A DNA stretch of 64,000 nt from Terfezia claveryi (taxonomy: Eukaryota > Ascomycota > Pezizomycetes > Pezizales > Pezizaceae): the NCBI GenBank assembly GCA_015179025.1, contig WHUX01000190.1, forward strand, positions 37,359-101,358, written 5' to 3'. Within the stretch, counting starts at the first letter, position 1. Each line of letters starts with the position of its first letter. Below the pieces are notes generated by a model. It had not been told where the DNA came from and ran no database searches. It saw only the letters and a list, made by a program, of their open reading frames with translations. Both the position numbers and the translations under genes were made by a program. This document shows positions 1,575 through 57,591 of the stretch, piece after piece.

Positions 1575-1601
1575 GTTAATTTAACCAGACTAGATTAATT
1601 T
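1575..1601. repeat. AACCAGACTAG micro-insertion with imperfect 8-9 bp flanking repeat
   Basis: AACCAGACTAG (1583-1593) lies between GTTAATTT (1575-1582) and ATTAATTT (1594-1601), identical at 7 of 8 bases. It is the reverse complement of CTAGTCTGGTT, the end-like motif found repeatedly in the window. A second copy of the motif, TAGTCTGGTTGGCAC, follows at 1618-1632 directly in front of a LINE tail. Confidence 0.45.
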
Positions 1602-1631
1602 CTCTACAAGAGGCTTGTAGTCTGGTTGGCA

Positions 1632-1760
1632 CGTTAATGACAGCATGGTAGTCTGGAACCTCGATACACTTGAGTTCTTTTGGTTTTTGTGCGCCGGACC
1701 TGGCAGATTAACTTGCCTTGTCCTGAATCCAACCAGGTTTCCGGGTTGCTTCCTCATCAA
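1632..1760 (+). repeat. LINE 3'-tail fragment (plus strand)
   Basis: The stretch matches the sequence at 10370-10580 block by block: GTTAATGACAGCATGG, then GGCAGATTAACTTGCCTTG, then GGTTTCCGGGT. The same tail in minus orientation ends the LINE at 2011-2580. It lacks a poly(A) end here. Compared with the 10.4-kb copy it carries an extra TAGTCTGG after CATGG (about 1650). Confidence 0.6.
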
Positions 1761-2587: not shown

Positions 2588-2790
2588 TAGGCCTGGGCAC
2601 GAGACGAGACGTCTCGAGACACTTCGGCAAAAGTCTCGAGACAGTCTCGAGACTTTTCGTCAGTGGCGGCGAAAATTTTTCAGTGGCTGCAAACATATTT
2701 TTTTATTGGTTGCGACCAGTGTTGTGACCAGTGTTACGATATACAATTGGTTGGTTGGCACAACACCCTCATATCTTAATGTTATTTGGT

Positions 2791-2828
2791 ACTAAAGGTA
2801 GTCTGGCGAACTAAAGGTAGTCTGGCGA
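2791..2828 (+). repeat. Tandem 19-bp unit: ACTAAAGG + TAGTCTGGCGA, twice
   Basis: ACTAAAGG (2791-2798), TAGTCTGGCGA (2799-2809), ACTAAAGG (2810-2817), TAGTCTGGCGA (2818-2828). It can be read as a simple tandem duplication or as the TAGTCTGG motif inserted with an 8-bp duplication. It lies inside the hAT element, 5' of its gene. Confidence 0.7.
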
Positions 2829-2922
2829 AGATATCTATTCCTTCTCCTCGTTCTCCACCTTCTCCGCTTATTTCCTACACATTTCTCTCCTACAGCTAAA
2901 ATTGTCAACTTCGTTGCCAACA

Positions 2923-3453
2923 ATGAGCCAAATCTCTGTATCGGCTGCTCGTACACCAGATGAATATATTACGGCTTTGGCAGGGCGCTATGCTACGCTG
3001 CAAGACTCACGTACTATTAGCGGAACTGTATGCTCACGGAAATTCAGCAGTTATGTATATACCCGAAAGATGTTAATTCGGAAGACATTGGAACATGATG
3101 AAAGTAAGCATATTATCTACTGTACGCACTGCACAAGAGGGGAGTGGACTGTAGAAGCAAAATCTACTACTTCTAGTTTACAGCTACGACATCTCCGACA
3201 GCGACATCCTTTGCTCCCAACCAGTCAAGAAGAAGAAATACAACGACTGGAACAGCTAGCGAAATCTTCAGGTACTACAACAACTGAGCAGACTCCGTTC
3301 AGTGTTATGGCACAAGGGAAAACAGCAAGTACAAGAAAACAAGCGGACCGATTTGATAAGTTTACACCGCTAGACATGATTTTAGAGCGAGGGTTGGTGG
3401 AAGAGGGAATGGAAGGGGATCTGGAAATCGAAGGCGAAGATGATGATGATTAG
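2923..3453 (+). CDS. BED-type zinc-finger protein of a hAT element (N-terminal transposase part only)
   Basis: The frame encodes 176 aa from the ATG at 2923, the first ATG in frame; an acidic tail (EIEGEDDDD) ends it. The middle shows a BED-like finger: IIYCTHC, then LQLRHLRQRHP, giving C-x2-C ... H-x4-H spacing. The segment ADRFDKFTPLDM resembles the linker that follows the BED finger in hAT transposases. The RNase H-fold catalytic domain and the C-terminal dimerisation (hATC) domain are absent. The protein could bind DNA, perhaps the repeated ends of hAT relatives, but could not cut. The frame is open and undamaged, unusual in this debris, so it may be retained or simply recent. Confidence 0.6.
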   Translation: MSQISVSAARTPDEYITALAGRYATLQDSRTISGTVCSRKFSSYVYTRKMLIRKTLEHDESKHIIYCTHCTRGEWTVEAKSTTSSLQLRHLRQRHPLLPTSQEEEIQRLEQLAKSSGTTTTEQTPFSVMAQGKTASTRKQADRFDKFTPLDMILERGLVEEGMEGDLEIEGEDDDD

Positions 3454-3554
3454 GTAGCTAGCTCATGAGTTCGAATACAATTATCTTGGGTGCATTGGCA
3501 AAAGTCTCGAGACCAGGCGCTGTCTCGTCTCGAGACGTCTCGTGCCCAGGCGTA

Positions 3555-3562
3555 GGGCAGTC
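3555..3562. repeat. Right 8-bp target-site duplication of the hAT element
   Basis: GGGCAGTC, identical to 2580-2587, directly after the last TIR base at 3554. Confidence 0.85.
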
Positions 3563-27800: not shown

Positions 27801-30255
27801 TCTAATTTAGAAGGTTATTTATGCTCTGTCCATATTCAGTTATTATTGTCCATGGATAGCAATCTCCACTACCTACATCTTCGTGGTGTAGTAGCTTATA
27901 ATCTAGAACTTACTGAATATCATCTTGGATGGTACAGTACATACATATCGGCGGTATACTCAGTTGAGTATGATTATGGATAGGATGCAGTGTTAATGTA
28001 ACAGGGACTAGACTCTGGACTATGAATTAAAACATGCTACTGTTCATCGAAGACTACATATCAAAATACAATCCACGGTGCCTATCGTATTGATTAATAC
28101 GAGAAATCCCTTCAGCCATAGTGGTACCAAAGTGGGATAAAGCATGCATATACGTATTTTAAGCTTTTAGTATTACTGTGGCAAGCCCCAATAGTTCCTG
28201 ACCACGCATACAACCCCCCATTCTGAATTTACTTACACTAGCTTTGGTGTACACGGCTGTAGCACGACTGCCGTGTAGCCGTCATACGCTTTTGGCAAGA
28301 GATTTGGGCCTGAGCATCAATTTTCATGTGGGACCTCTGTTCACAAAGCCTTTACTTAGGGCGACACGGGAAATTATAAGTGTGCCAGAGCTGAAATTGA
28401 GATGGTTGTCATAGATCCACGTCGATTTGTGTGGAGGCGGCTATAGCAACATGAGACGGAGGAGGGTTATCATGTTACCTGCCGCTTTTCCAAAATATTT
28501 CAGGGCCGTATGATTAATGCTTCTCTAGGTACTCCGTACAGTAATGCCTTGCCTAAGTACCTAGTCTGGTTGCAATGCCTACCAAAGGCTCGAGGGAACC
28601 AGACTAGCTCGAGGGTACACAAGCACTACACCACATAAAGACTAGTGCGTTACACATACTGTACCTCTATCGACAGAGCTGGAGGGTACATAAATATATA
28701 TGATCATGATCAGTTCATGAAGCACTGCTACGAAATTTAAAACTTCAATTTCAGTAGAAATCCCAGTTTTTCTGTCTCACGGCCGTAAAGCAGAGCGTGC
28801 CAAGGGACCCTGGGTACAGTAGCAAGGACCACTATGAACAACATTTGAACCCCCTGAATGTAAGTAGGAATGTTAGGTACGGTACATAGTACACACTGTA
28901 AGTAACAAAATAATGACGACTGAGGCCCTGTGGTTGTCGTAAGCTGGATAGTCTCAGGCTGGGATGTGATTACATACCCGCTTAGGTACATGCTGTTTAG
29001 ATTCCACTTGTTTCAGGTAAATGATGAAGGGTCCTTTCTTTCAATAGCTTCATACTTAATCTGCACCTGGTATTATCCCTACCGCGAGAAGGGGATCACT
29101 ACACTAGATAGTTGGGATCAAATGCAACAGATGGAAATTCACAACTCTGGGAAATTGATTGGCCGTTGGCCTGGTTTGAGTTTCGTCGTTAAAACGTCCA
29201 TGGCAACAAACGCTGCAAGCAGCGCGAATGGTTATGATTTAACGCTATTCTGCTACGATCTACGGATCTATAATAGATCTAGATCTTGCAGATGTGCACA
29301 ACGCCACTGCCAATCGACAGATACGGGCTATCCTAGACGCATGAATTCATGAGAAGGCCTATTATTTCCGCGAAAGCCCGGGTTGAAGGAATTGCAAGTT
29401 AGCGTTTTCAGCACTGTGCCCGTTCAATTTCGCCTTCTCCCGATATCCCTTGTACCGCTCCGAGTCGCATGCACCTTAATCTTCCAGTTCGTTTGCCTTG
29501 TCCCGCCAAGCGCCGACTCCTGGATGACAATCTCTATCTGTAGACTCCGCATTCCAGTGCTCCCACAGCAAGAATGCCACCCTTAAGTACTTTGCATCCC
29601 TCCTGGACCGCCCCGCTGGAGAGATAAAGGCACAGTATGGGTGCCGGCAGCATGACCTGCCCCCGCGTATTATTCCTCCCTTACAACATTGTAGCCTCGT
29701 GCCGGCGTGATGTGCTGTGTGCTAGGTATATCAGCAAGCTCCCCCCAGAAGCTCTCCCTCTCCATCCTCCACGTACTTCTTCTACTCTCGTGTGCAACCC
29801 ACCTCCCCCCCCCCCCGACCGTTCGGTTCACCCCCTCCGTTCCCACTCCTTCGAACGTCCCTTTTTTCTTCCCTCATCACACTCTTTGTCGACTGGGTCT
29901 GCATTGCTGCAATACCGACGTTCCTTCAGATCCGTGCCTTCCTTAACGTGCACGTTTGTACAGCTTAACGACTTAGCAAACAGCCCCGCGGGTTAGAGCT
30001 TGTACCTTCACCGATACCAACTACTATACATTCCTTTTTCGGACGGCTGAGAGTTATATCCAAAAGAGATCTCCAATATCTCGTTCCTGTGGTGGGAGTT
30101 TGTTCGATTTACATCTGGCAGGTAGGCTTGCATTTTCTATTCTTCAATGTTCCCCCCACATGGGGGTTGTGGTACTTGTCATTGACGGTTGGCCACTTAT
30201 GTTCACGATCATGGGGAATATAGTATATTTTCTTCGGCTCGATTTCAGCAACATC
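24814..30255. other. Long interval without a supported gene
   Basis: About 5.4 kb with only short frames and no recognisable domain on either strand. Contained signals: a short inverted repeat ACGGCTGTAG/ACGGCTACACGG-like near 28250, and the TAGTCTGGTT motif pair near 28561-28615 (separate entry). From 29640 onward the plus strand becomes pyrimidine-rich (CTCCCTCTCCATCCTCC...), as in fungal promoters, in front of the DUF1996 gene. Confidence 0.4.
28588..28615. repeat. AACCAGACTAG micro-insertion with perfect 8-bp TSD CTCGAGGG
   Basis: CTCGAGGG (28589-28596), AACCAGACTAG (28597-28607), CTCGAGGG (28608-28615). The direct repeat extends to 9 bp with the preceding G. The insert is the reverse complement of CTAGTCTGGTT, and a plus-strand CTAGTCTGGTT lies 36 bp upstream at 28561-28571. 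Confidence 0.7.
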
Positions 30256-36851: not shown

Positions 36852-36881
36852 GAGTCTGGTAGTCTGGTTGCACGAGTCTGG
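36852..36881 (+). repeat. TAGTCTGGTTGCAC micro-insertion with perfect 8-bp TSD GAGTCTGG
   Basis: GAGTCTGG (36852-36859), TAGTCTGGTTGCAC (36860-36873), GAGTCTGG (36874-36881). The target itself resembles the inserted motif (GAGTCTGGTTGGCC follows), so a partial tandem duplication is an alternative reading. Confidence 0.65.
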
Positions 36882-38626: not shown

Positions 38627-38632
38627 CATATC

Positions 38633-38665
38633 CTATTGTTTAGTCTGGTTGGCACCTCTATTGTT
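38633..38665 (+). repeat. TAGTCTGGTTGGCACCT micro-insertion, perfect 8-bp TSD, empty site known
   Basis: CTATTGTT (38633-38640), 17-bp insert (38641-38657), CTATTGTT (38658-38665). The paralogous block reads CCTATTGTTATAGATCG without interruption at about 45185-45201, so this is a true insertion with target duplication. Confidence 0.9.
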
Positions 38666-39047: not shown

Positions 39048-39064
39048 TTGTGCCAACCAGACTA
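39048..39064 (-). repeat. GTGCCAACCAGACTA motif copy, inverted orientation
   Basis: TTGTGCCAACCAGACTA (39048-39064) is the reverse complement of TAGTCTGGTTGGCACAA. The paralogous block lacks it and diverges to its left; no clean 8-bp repeat. With the copy at 38641 it forms an inverted pair 424 bp apart. Confidence 0.65.
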
Positions 39065-45183: not shown

Positions 45184-46063
45184 ATCCTATTGTTATAGAT
45201 CGTCGGAGTATGATGGAAAAAGTGGCATGAATATTCGAATTGGCCTCTTAGTATAAGGCACCATGAGAGGTATGCTTATCACATGATTTTACTGTATAGT
45301 AGATTAGTACGTTTCACGATTCTTAAATCAAATACAGTATATTCTTTTATTTAATCCCTATGCCATGAGTAAACTGTCTAAAAACATATTTCCATTGGAG
45401 CAGAGACCAATACAATAGCCCCGAAAATAGTTTGTTCATCAAAAGCGGCTTTGTCATAATCACCTGAAGTCCGGACCATAGCCAATGAGATGCGGCGTAT
45501 TATCCTGAAGCGGCAGTATGGACGCCAATAAGGCTAATGTGCTTCAAAAAAGATGAAGTTCCAGTTGTAATCTCCTTTAGCTTGTATAGGGAGGGTTTTC
45601 TGCTAACCAACCTGAGGCGAATCCTTAGAAGTGAAACGGCAGTGTTTTTTATGCATGGAGTTAATGACTCTCTTGCGTCTGCGTCTTCACCTAGTTTTCC
45701 TGGTGGTGGTGATTTTCCAGACAGTTGTCGCAAGATCGATACCTTGGGAACACTTCATCCCAGGGAATGTCACAAGCTATTGAATCCAGAGCGGAATTTG
45801 GAGAATGTGAGTTGGAGTATACCGTCTTTAACGAGAGACCGCAGTGTTCAAGAACGATTGGATGGCACTCACGCAGGTGGAATGTGGTTGGCAGAGAAGT
45901 GCTATTTGTACTGTGAGCACTCGCACCCCTCCCCTGGTAGCGCGTGCCTCCATAGTAAGGTATAAGAAACATAAACATAATAAATTGTCTGCCGATATAA
46001 AGTAACCAAGGCCGAATATAAATAGCAAATCCATCACACCAGCCTTCACCACATCGATCTCCT

Positions 46064-48762: not shown

Positions 48763-49060
48763 TTGCATGAACCAAACTGGGAATTTTAATATCAGCCAGA
48801 TATATATGATAAAAGACTGCAATCCTACCTAGGAATCAGTGCAATGGAGCCTGTTGCATTCAACGCAATGCATTCACCTGTTAATTGTTAATCCATTCAT
48901 TCACATGAATGAATCCAACAACTTCCACTCCATTGATTATTCATGCTACAATGGAGGTTGCTGTCTGTTACAGTACTATAGGTATAGTCTCATGCCAATA
49001 GGTATATGATTTTAAAATTCCCATTTTGATTCAGAGAAAGTCAGCTCGCGGATGTAGAGC
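48763..49060. repeat. MITE-like long inverted repeat, copy 2
   Basis: CCGCTAGCTGACTTTGCATG...CTGGGAATTTTAATAT on the left is mirrored by ATTTTAAAATTCCCAT...AAAGTCAGCTCGCGG on the right, about 45-bp arms. It holds ATTCATTCACATGAATGAAT, a near palindrome, at about 48894. Confidence 0.65.
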
Positions 49061-53912: not shown

Positions 53913-54092
53913 TGCTCCGAGACTATAATACAGTGGTAGTTGAATGCACGGAGCAATATAAGCTCGAGGCAATATAAGCTCGCTCGCAGCAATATAGGCT
54001 CGTTTGTTTGGTAGATATAGAGCTCGTTCAGCTCACTCTGAGGATCTAGAAACAAGCATCCGGACCATATTGGACAGATTCTAGCCCGAGCA

Positions 54093-54855
54093 TGAATACG
54101 CATGCCGGAGATGTGTGAATACTCATGTTGGAGATGTGTGAATGCTCATGCCGGAGATGTCTGAATTCGCATGTTCGAGATGTGTGAATACTCATGCCGG
54201 AGATGTCTGAATTCACATGCCGGAGATGTGTGAATACTCATGTCGGAGATGTCCGAATACTCATGCCAGAGATGTCTGAATGCTCATGCCGGAGATGTCT
54301 GAATTCGCATGCCGGAGATGTCTGAATGCTCATGCTGGAGATGTCTGAATTCGTATGTTCGAGATGTGTGAATACTCATGCCGGAGATGTCTATGAATAC
54401 TTATGCCGGAGGTGTCTGAATGCTCATGCCGGAGATGTCTGAATTCGCATGTTCGAGATGTCTGAATTCGCATGTTCGAGATGTGTGAATACACATGCCG
54501 GAGATATCTGAATTCGCATGTTCGAGATGTCTGAATTCGCATGTTGGAGATGTCTGAATACTCATGCCGGAGATGTCTGAATACTCATGCCGGAGATGTC
54601 TGAATTCGCACGTTGGAGATGTCTGAATGCACATGCCGGAGATGTCTGAATGCTCATGCCGGAGATGTCTGAATTCACATGCCGGAGATGTGTGAATACA
54701 CATGCCGGAGATGTCTGAATTCGCATGTTGGAGATGTCTGAATTCGCATGTTGGAGATGTCTGAATTCGCATGTTCGAGATGTCTGAATACACATGCCGG
54801 AGATGTGTGAATACTCATGCCGGAGATGTCTGAATTCGCATGTTCGAGATGTCTG
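54093..54855. repeat. 23-bp minisatellite, about 33 copies
   Basis: The unit is TGAATACTCATGCCGGAGAT plus GTC, with variable positions (ACTC/TCGC/GCTC; GCCGG/GTTCG/GTTGG). The length 763 bp fits 33 units with one extra trinucleotide. Because 23 is not a multiple of 3, the open minus-strand frame through it repeats every 69 bp. Confidence 0.9.
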
Positions 54856-55039
54856 ATTCTCTCCATCATGTCCTGTATCTAGTTGCTCTAGGCAATAAAT
54901 ACCTCTTTCCCGAATATCTGCTCGAGTGTAGCTCAGACTGCCTCGCACCTGCATTTGGATATGTCGCCTCCCATTAGACTCTGGTTTCGCCCAAGTCCCC
55001 GTCGCCCCATCTAGACTCTGGTCTCGCCCAAGTCGCCTG

Positions 55040-55470
55040 CTCGCCTCGCTTACGTTGCTCGCCTCGCTTACCTTGCTCGCTTTGCTTGCCTTGCTCGCCT
55101 TGCCTGCCTCGCTTGCCTCGCTTGCCTTGCTTGCCTTGCTTGCCTTGCTTGCCTTGCTTGCCTCGCTTGCCTTGCTTGCCTTGCTTGCCTTGCTTGCCTT
55201 GCTTGCCTTGCTTGCCTTGCTTGCCTTGCTTGCCTTGCTTGCCTTGCTTGCCTTGCTTGCCTTGCTTGCCTTGCTTGCCTTGCCTGCCCTGCTCGCCTTG
55301 CCTGCCCTGCTCCCCTTGCTTGCCTTGCTCGCCTTGCTTGCCTTGCCTGCCCTGCTCGCTTTGCTTGCCCTGCTCGCCTTGCTTGCCTTGCCTGCTTTGC
55401 TCGCCTCGCTTGCTCGCCTCGCTTGCCCTGCTTGCCTTGCTCGTGCCTGCCTCGCCCTGCTCGCTCCTGC
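55040..55470. repeat. 9-bp minisatellite TTGCTTGCC, about 45 copies
   Basis: The array of TTGCTTGCC and close variants is open on both strands (Leu-Leu-Ala on the plus strand, Ser-Lys-Ala on the minus). The purest part is 55110-55280. Strand asymmetry is strong: C+T on the plus strand. Confidence 0.9.
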
Positions 55471-55627
55471 CTCCCCTCCCATCGGTGGTTTGGATATGTC
55501 GTCCCGCTCGACACTGGCCTTGTTGGAGCTCTGGTCTGGCCCCTAGCTCGTAGCCCTCCTAGCTCACCCCCGACACCCGCGTAAGCCCACTTACGCGAGT
55601 GCTGGCCTTACCCCGCCACCGATTCAT

Positions 55628-55705: not shown

Positions 55706-56790
55706 CGGCTATCAATATTCAATTCTATAGTGTATGTTCTCTCCGCTAGGAGTGCAATACCTCTATACCCGAGCAGGATTGTATGACCTGGAGCAGGACT
55801 GGAGCAGGAGTAGATGAGCTGGAGCAAGATTATATGACCTTGAGCAGGATTTTATGAGCCAGAGAAAGGTTTATAGCTCTGAAAGGTCTGCTCTGGGCAT
55901 TGTGGAGCAGGGCGGAGCAAAGCAAAGGTATGGGCTAAACAAAGTGCTGTTGTTCTGTGTCAGTATTTGCTCCATTATCATAGAAAAAAAAAAAAAATGA
56001 AATGCAGCTCATAACAACGCTAGTACTTCCGAAACAGGCTATGCACACGCTAACATCTCCGGGAATCTTGGCACCGGAGATGATTTCGGAGATGATTTCG
56101 GAGGTGTATAGTCCCAGACTCTCTTCTGATTAAATCGCAGAAGCGAATGCCAAGATCAGGCTAGAGTCTGGGTACGAGAACACTCTCTGCTATAATTCCT
56201 CTTCATATATATATAAGTCCTAACTTTAAAGCTAGTCTCCAGTTATTGCTATATCCTACTATTACTACTTATATACATAAGTCTCAACCTTGAAGCTAGT
56301 CTTTAGTCGTTGCCATATATGGCTATTGTTATATTTAGTAGAGGTTCCTTATAGTACCTTCTTTTTAAATAGAGAGAACTATAATCTCTTTTAGATTATA
56401 TTATTTATATACTATAATAGCATATAAGGCACCGAGCAAGTATATATTGCTTGGCGCGAGCCTATAAGGCGCTGAGCAAGCCTATAAGGCTCCGATTAAG
56501 TATCTACAAGAGTTTGGGACCGAGAAAAGTGTTCCGGCAGTGTTACGAGATATTTTTGTTGAGATGTTTAAAAATAAATATTTACAAATACTTTTCTATA
56601 TTGTATTATATATTCTGCTCCAAAGACACTAGAGTATTGCATAGCCTGTATTGGGTTTCATGCTAGTTGCTCCGGTATAATTTCGGAGGAGAGTGTTGTG
56701 CCAACCAGACTAAGTTACTACTAGCTCTTAGCCGTAGCACTAAAATAATTACAGCATAGGTACTAAGAAACTAGTCAGGAGAGCAGTACT
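55706..56790. other. No gene recognised; GGAGCAGGA-type low-complexity and AT-rich sequence
   Basis: GACCTGGAGCAGGAC and related units occur at 55780-55870. GTCTGGGTACGAGAACAC (56167-56184) resembles the end-like GTCTGGGCACGAGAAC at 32936. TTGTGCCAACCAGACTA at 56688-56704 is another inverted copy of the TAGTCTGG motif. Confidence 0.5.
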
Positions 56791-56985: not shown

Positions 56986-57591
56986 ATTGATTACAAGCCT
57001 CTATAAGAGGCTAGTGCTAGCCAGACTAATTACAAACATACCACCTCTAGTATGTAGCTCGAACATTACTTAAGAATGGGGCAATTCTAAAATGCCCCCA
57101 TTGTTAAGTAATGTACATAGCAGGGCAATTCCACCTATACTAAAATAACTTCTTGGCATACATTATGTCTTCAGGCTGAGTAGCAAAGACTATTCATATA
57201 TGCAAACTTTCAAGTTAGTTTTCCATATTGATAATAAAGACACCTACGTGCCATGCAATATTTGTCCTCCATATTCATAATAAAGACTGCTATATGCTGT
57301 CTTCAAATTAGTCCACCCCTTATGAAATGCACATACTAGTAAAAGAATCTGATTAAGTTGAGCTTATCCTCACTATATGAGATGTTCATGCTATTCACTT
57401 CCCATGATCCAAACCTAATATATTATCTGATTCTCTTTATAGTTATTGAGATTTTCATCAGCCATGATAATATTCTCTTCTACATAATACCATTATATAT
57501 ACACTTGTACCAGACTATATGGCTTTATATAGTAGCTTATTCAGTGTTGCTGGGCTAATGCAAGTATAGGTCTTATATATATATACTTATA

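Follow-up and report, generated by a model that had tools for sequence, protein, structure and literature searches.

The footprints of Tc1/mariner, Stowaway and hAT transposons amount to a few bases, and the serial integration typical of CRISPR and casposon systems duplicates a short repeat and so builds arrays of the form repeat-insert-repeat-insert-repeat. Excision leaves the target duplication or parts of it and, in the case of mariner and Stowaway, also short element-end sequences (available text of PMC4561436). The P element cuts 17 bp inside its 31-bp repeats, which leaves 17-nt 3' extensions on the element (available text of PMC7776569), and we infer that the matching tips stay on the flanks. 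Here we describe an insert from the fungus Terfezia claveryi which belongs to a large class of mobile-element tip remnants of 7-36 bases, each sitting in a duplicated 9-base target.

The P element is reminiscent of this class in that a long staggered cut inside an inverted repeat would leave a comparable tip-bearing flank (available text of PMC7776569), and a common scar here, at 31 bp, has the length of the P repeat. P differs in its duplication (8 bp versus 9 bp here), in the point at which short scars stop (17 versus about 15 here) and in its terminal sequence, and the host here is a fungus; hence the likeness to P is one of working and not of membership. The 9-bp duplication also falls in the range of the MULEs (8-11), whereas two MULE families of this genome start with CGGACTGACTC and GAGAAAACC rather than with TAGTCT. 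With MITEs the class shares very large numbers of short non-coding copies and duplications of fixed length, but most copies here have one end and not two (39 of 42 rows are one-sided) and the inserts are far shorter. Tc1/mariner, Stowaway and hAT footprints are unlike these mostly one-ended inserts of 7-36 bp, and the CRISPR and casposon arrays, used here as an analogy only, differ in that the inserts are element tips and not diverse spacers. We found no description of such scars in the open literature consulted, including the available text of PMC10045372, PMC7776569, PMC12730594 and PMC1978519, a scope that leaves aside repeat libraries and subscription papers.

The window, by which we mean the entire stretch of 64,000 nucleotides of contig WHUX01000190.1 that was analysed, was the subject of an earlier note that reported the insert as TAGTCTGGTTGGCACCT (38641-38657) between perfect copies of CTATTGTT (38633-38640 and 38658-38665), with an uninterrupted site in a sister block. 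The letters are as reported, and the sister block indeed holds one copy of CTATTGTT, which lies inside CCTATTGTTATAGATCG from 45186 on. The duplication around a short insert also stands, but its dimensions do not: instead of 17 bp with an 8-bp duplication we read a 15-bp insert with a 9-bp duplication. Among 118 distinct exact copies of the tip, at insert length 15, exactly 9 flanking bases are repeated in 11 cases and 10 in none; the window copy is one base off this general register, reading CCTATTGTT, 15 bp and CTCTATTGTT, with the extra base in the right repeat (Table 1). The sister pair is a duplicated block surrounding amine oxidase genes. For one of the proteins encoded in the window, the nearest named relative comes from Tirmania nivea, at 77% over 54% of the query length. 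To the right of the insertion point the first sister match runs for about 210 columns at 73% in a self-comparison of the window, whereas the homology to the left extends over 16 bases only (GACATATCCTATTGTT, target included); the empty site is therefore well supported rightward and by 16 bases leftward.

Table 1. Tips, inserts and target duplications located in the window
Feature	Position	Strand	Basis
Left copy of the 9-bp target duplication, CCTATTGTT	38632..38640		Sequence; register from 118 exact copies
15-bp one-ended insert TAGTCTGGTTGGCAC, tip of inverted repeat	38641..38655	+	2,885 exact copies in assembly
Right duplication copy plus one extra base, CTCTATTGTT	38656..38665		Sequence
Empty site in the sister block, single CCTATTGTT	45186..45194		Sequence; alignment program put the gap elsewhere
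13-bp insert TAGTCTGGTTGCA, exact CGAGTCTGG repeats	36860..36872	+	9/9
10-bp insert TAGTCTGGTT, exact CCCTCGAGC repeats	28597..28606	-	9/9
10-bp insert TAGTCTGGTT	1583..1592	-	Repeats 8/9
10-bp insert TAGTCTGGCG within hAT-like element	2799..2808	+	Repeats 8/9
11-bp insert TAGTCTCATGC	48985..48995	+	Repeats 8/9; weak, possibly fortuitous
30-bp insert of the longer class, TAGTCTGGCTAGCACTAGCCTCTTATAGAG	56999..57028	-	Repeats 8/9
Exact tip copy, then inwards AAGCCCCCCGCC	39050..39064	-	No 8/9 repeat found
Exact tip copy, then inwards AACACTCTCCTCC	56698..56712	-	No 8/9 repeat found
Exact tip copy adjoining the 1583-1592 insert	1618..1632	+	No 8/9 repeat found

The window additionally contains an element at 2588-3554 that we judge by its ends (TAGGCCTGGGCACGAGACG and TACGCCTGGGCACGAGACG) to be hAT-like and non-autonomous; it is flanked by an 8-bp duplication, GGGCAGTC (2580-2587 and 3555-3562), and has a hand-read open frame of 176 aa, which has no Pfam match. 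From CACCTCTAGTATGTAGCTCGAACATTAC, at about 57043, the sequence matches by eye the border region of KDZ copies on contigs C14 and C38, and a KDZ element may start there. Self-comparison also delineated two tandem repeat arrays, at 54092-54856 and 55036-55477.

Searches of the whole assembly (72,558,070 bases, 72.6 Mb, in 794 contigs) recovered exact TAGTCTGGTTGGCAC 2,885 times as against 0 for the same string read backwards, and its first ten bases 7,569 times as against 161 backwards. An unselected set of 83 copies was obtained from the first 100 matches listed by setting aside 15 unretrieved ones and 2 in the locus L032; all 56 exact matches on contig C1 (1.13 Mb) fall in this set, except the 2 in L032. 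Allowing insert lengths of 10-69, the flanking 9-mer was repeated at 8/9 or better in 42 of the 83 copies, 28 of them exactly, as compared to a mean of 1.4 (maximum 5) and, for exact repeats, a mean of 0.3 (maximum 2) in 200 shuffles of the left flank. Of these 42 rows, 39 have a one-ended insert, i.e. one that lacks a terminal CAGACTA; a 30-bp palindrome, which is counted from both ends, is among the 3 that are two-sided. In the other 41 of the 83 copies no repeat reaches 8/9, and by eye some of these have shifted or worn repeats and others none. Throughout the retrieved sequence, a sample enriched for chosen loci, 98 of the 424 different TAGTCT sites show an exact 9-bp repeat when insert lengths of 6-70 are allowed and two-sided inserts are counted from both ends; of nine control hexamers, eight gave 0-4 of 94-163 sites and the ninth, ATGTCT, 11 of 172. 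Furthermore, when nine-base direct repeats 8-60 bases apart were collected from 297,612 bases, the commonest insert start by far was TAGTCT (67), and the next, GTGCCA (12), is the same tip on the other strand. No target-site consensus is discernible, with at most 0.16 bit per position over 86 sites. The genome-wide recurrence that the earlier note had proposed to look for is thus found, with many copies, differing 9-mers at the flanks, a duplication of fixed length and one terminus, and this supports a transposase-type event as the origin of the inserts.

The inserts fall into two length classes, a short one of 7-16 bp, with a sharp edge at 15-16, and a longer one of 23-36 bp. In the 42 unselected rows, whose lower length limit is fixed by the 15-mer query, the inserts measure 14-15 bp in 17 cases, 25-36 bp in 24 (two-sided ones included) and 58 bp in one, and lengths of 16-24 bp are absent. 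At sites not picked by the 15-mer (280,550 bases, overlaps included) exact 9-bp repeats are present at 34 of 247 distinct TAGTCT sites. Of these inserts 18 measure 7-16 bp (most often 10 bp, six times), 13 measure 23-36 bp and 3 measure 49-64 bp, and the range of 17-22 bp is empty. We accordingly rejected a fixed length of 15 for the short inserts, given the spread at these sites; the excess at 15 among the 83 copies arises partly because the 15-mer was the query. There are several tip types, such as TAGTCTGGTTGGCAC, TAGTCTGGTTGCAC, TAGTCTCGTGCC and TAGTCTCGATCAGACC, among others. Inserts of the longer class continue beyond the tip with a C-rich block and, in many cases, with a short stretch that is complementary to itself; an example is the 31-bp TAGTCTGGTTGGCACAAGCCTCTCGTAGAGA, the first 30 bases of which have 89 exact genomic copies. 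Twenty-two copies of this 30-mer in 20 regions showed an exact 9-bp repeat in 7 cases at insert lengths of 31-32 bp and in 2 more at 28 and 34, an 8/9 repeat in 6 (27-31 bp) and none in 7. The folding energy of ten inserts was no better than that of dinucleotide shuffles (z from -1.3 to +0.4). Among 29 distinct one-sided inserts of 24-36 bp, a count that excludes two-sided forms, a near-copy of the 31-mer (L069) and a nested insert (L010), 7 end in a perfect 4-bp stem with a loop of 3-5 bases against 0.27 in shuffled sequences, and the 3-bp version of the stem gave 5 against 1.1; both counts are post hoc and at most suggestive of a hairpin at the inner end of the insert. The repeat test presupposes that the outer end of the tip abuts the repeat. 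By eye, the loci L009, L026, L042, L072 and L074 have 4-6 additional bases that separate the tip's outer end from the duplication, and those of L009 resemble a second worn tip.

Exact tips that face each other with 0-30 bases between them occur at 46 places in the assembly. In 6 of the 15 such places that were retrieved (L031 and L020 being one and the same place), exact 9-bp repeats lie directly outside, delimiting forms of 30, 41, 46, 50, 50 and 54 bp; the other 9 have no exact repeat directly outside. The 30-bp form is a palindrome made of two tips, with the exact repeat GTAAGATTG. The middles of the two-sided forms vary, as would be expected from end joining.

We interpret the insert as the excision scar of a cut-and-paste transposon that cuts deep inside its inverted repeat, a proposal to which we give an even chance of being right. 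What we observed are duplications of 9 bp, a majority of one-ended inserts, two classes of length, some two-sided forms and no intact element in the sample; where the strands are cut, an overhang of the 3' type, the course of repair and the transposase itself are putative. The scars would derive from a family of cut-and-paste DNA transposons with ends of the form TAGTCT...AGACTA, which would make a 9-bp target duplication on insertion. At excision the 3' strand would be cut exactly at the element border and the 5' strand within the inverted repeat, at a depth of about 15 nt or, in other events, of about 25-35 nt, such that each broken flank would be left with a 3' single strand still bearing the tip. 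During repair one tip would be trimmed off and the other, whole or shortened to 7-14 bases, would be ligated to the opposite recessed 5' end; the product would be 9-mer, tip, 9-mer in either orientation, and retention of both tips would give two-sided scars of 23-54 bp, including the 30-bp palindrome. A trimmed overhang of about 15 nt would fit the edge at 15-16 with shorter forms below it. Ligation of a tip on a 3' overhang would yield one-sided products with the other duplication intact and would also allow two-tip palindromes. One-ended forms would prevail because a 3' overhang needs a primer for fill-in yet ligates to a recessed 5' end, whereas 5' overhangs, being fillable, would by this reasoning give mostly two-sided products. 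Scars could far outnumber elements, since every jump would leave one behind while the number of elements need not grow. We rank excision scarring above the minimal substrate or abortive insertion suggested by the earlier note on account of the far commoner one-ended rows and the sharp edge at 15-16 bp. As the short inserts vary between 7 and 16 bp no single cut position is proven, and to account for the 23-36 nt kept in the longer class either a second cut site or a stop to trimming must be invoked. Such a stop is hinted at by the terminal 4-bp stems (7 of 29), while the folding energies lend no support to a stable structure. Against excision scars stand the lack of an intact donor in the retrieved sequence and of a match to a P-type domain (the control genomes being likewise silent), the serial inserts despite preference-free targets, and the 41 of 83 copies and 9 of 15 facing-tip places without the required repeat; likewise, a simple scar model does not predict the 4-6 extra bases outside the tip.

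In our search for the source element, the only candidates longer than 60 bp with TAGTCT-like ends on both sides and 9-bp repeats, in 297,612 retrieved bases (overlaps included), were of 85 and 109 bp. The former, a mini-element TAGCCTCGTA...TACGAGGCTA at 1075-1159 of locus L092, has an exact 9-bp duplication, TCTGTACCT, and is perhaps a relative of the source family; the repeats of the latter match at 8/9. A search for exact reciprocal flank 9-mers among 334 sites (the L032 pair included), which would reveal an element of any length if both its ends were retrieved and unworn, uncovered two-sided scars, pairs from the same site and a single match between unrelated loci, L079 and L107, whose shared 9-mer is itself motif sequence, with no intact element among them. 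Two facing 30-mers 3.2 kb apart on contig C712 were rejected as an element: the left one is flanked by an exact repeat of its own, the right one by none. The P-type transposase domains PF12017 and PF21787 have no match in the genome, and the control genomes are silent too. Merlin was discarded as the source given that the IS1595-type transposase domain PF12762 is without a match in this genome, as compared to 1 positive among 14 control genomes. The KDZ transposons showed no link to the tips at the one border read, that of a family with two copies, which ends in CTAGAGGTG and not in AGACTA. The MULEs were examined in three families. Two elements of 2.6 kb, 91% alike, were traced end to end (L101, 1961-4596; L102, 2315-4932), both with 9-bp duplications (TTGTTGAGG or TGCTACCTA) and inverted repeats of about 105 bp. 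A further MULE of 4,756 bp (L123 with L124, contig C60) has a 10-bp duplication, CATCTGCAAC; its inverted repeats exceed 750 bp, are 97% identical and both contain the stretch TAGTCTGGCTGGC. The paralogue comparison of a MULE repeat gave no information, as the stretch TAGTCTGG is identical in both repeats. We rejected two of these MULE families as the source because their ends, given above, are not TAGTCT; those of the third lie beyond the retrieved stretch.

Several loci have received more than one insert at the same target. At L019, L033 and L112 two inserts alternate with three exact copies of a 9-mer, at L056 four copies enclose three inserts, each of a different tip type, and at L067 two inserts are seen by eye, with worn repeats. 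L069 also shows one 9-mer in three copies, but its other spacer (8 bp) is no tip, and L093 was rejected as an ordinary tandem repeat. Among the matches listed (100 of 130, rows from both strands merged), 81 places have tips head to head, with a spacing of 9 in 14, of 10 in 11 and of any other value in at most 7; the gap strings comprise 13 distinct ones at spacing 9 and 10 at spacing 10. Head-to-tail pairs have no clear peak at 9 (5 at 9, 9 at 10 and 8 at 11, in the 92 rows with letters among 100 listed of 142), and since many of these gaps begin with the inner repeat block their spacing is uninformative or, for that orientation, against serial reuse. Serial reuse of one 9-mer demands an explanation whatever the model. 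A rival to excision scarring is one-ended integration, in which a transposase would free short tips, join the true end to one target strand and nick the other 9 nt away, after which host repair would join the inner end; the full element would never have been at the site, and an inserted tip would draw the next event to the same 9-mer. The serial inserts, the head-to-head spacings of 9 and 10, the lack of an intact element in the retrieved sequence, and the 89 exact copies of the 30-mer of the longer class, with duplications around most of those retrieved, are in line with this. Nevertheless, it calls for a half-reaction combined with accurate nicking of the second strand, two tips integrated in concert should yield mostly two-sided products (only 3 of 42 rows), and we know of no transposase with free tips as its main product; these points make one-ended integration rather unlikely in our estimation. 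Judging from L056 (three inserts), L019, L033 and L112 (two each) and L067 (two by eye), a similarly doubtful generalization would be an integration activity that captures transposon tips singly with a 9-bp duplication and revisits its sites, such that repeat-tip arrays would grow in a manner analogous to CRISPR adaptation.

The 7-36 bp units could alternatively be self-mobile miniature transposons moved in trans, given their many identical copies with 9-bp duplications and an 85-bp element indicating that very short two-ended elements exist in this genome; but paired-end transposition needs two ends and 10-15 bp is less than most binding sites, so that the single terminus in 39 of 42 rows renders this decidedly improbable. 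We consider it still less likely that two-ended palindromic micro-elements of about 50 bp decayed through the loss of one arm: palindromes of 50-54 bp with exact duplications do occur, yet two-sided forms are rarer than one-sided ones, and arm loss would have had to halt precisely at the border of the 9-mer in dozens of cases, although these 9-mers are unrelated to one another. A hAT insertion or footprint is the least probable origin of all. In its favour, the dimerisation domain is abundant (150 scored matches in the genome) and the ends start with TA, but the nine borders read among these matches begin with TACG(C/T)CTGGGCACGAG or close to it and not TAGTCT, the duplication is of 9 bp and not of 8 as in the hAT-like element of the window (GGGCAGTC), and the hAT footprints described in the available text of PMC1978519 change the duplication and retain no element tip. 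On these grounds hAT is not supported as the source, nor is the hAT-type enzyme that the earlier note had envisaged as the mover.

If the inserts are excision scars, the genome of this fungus would be a record of very many jumps by elements that left little else, with each jump adding about 20-45 bp at a nearly random place. As the unit is so short, repeat finders may miss such small insertions. To our knowledge the deep staggered cut is known from P alone; if excision scarring is true, these inserts would represent a second case, with another duplication length, and would provide a large natural set of end-joining products from a fungus.
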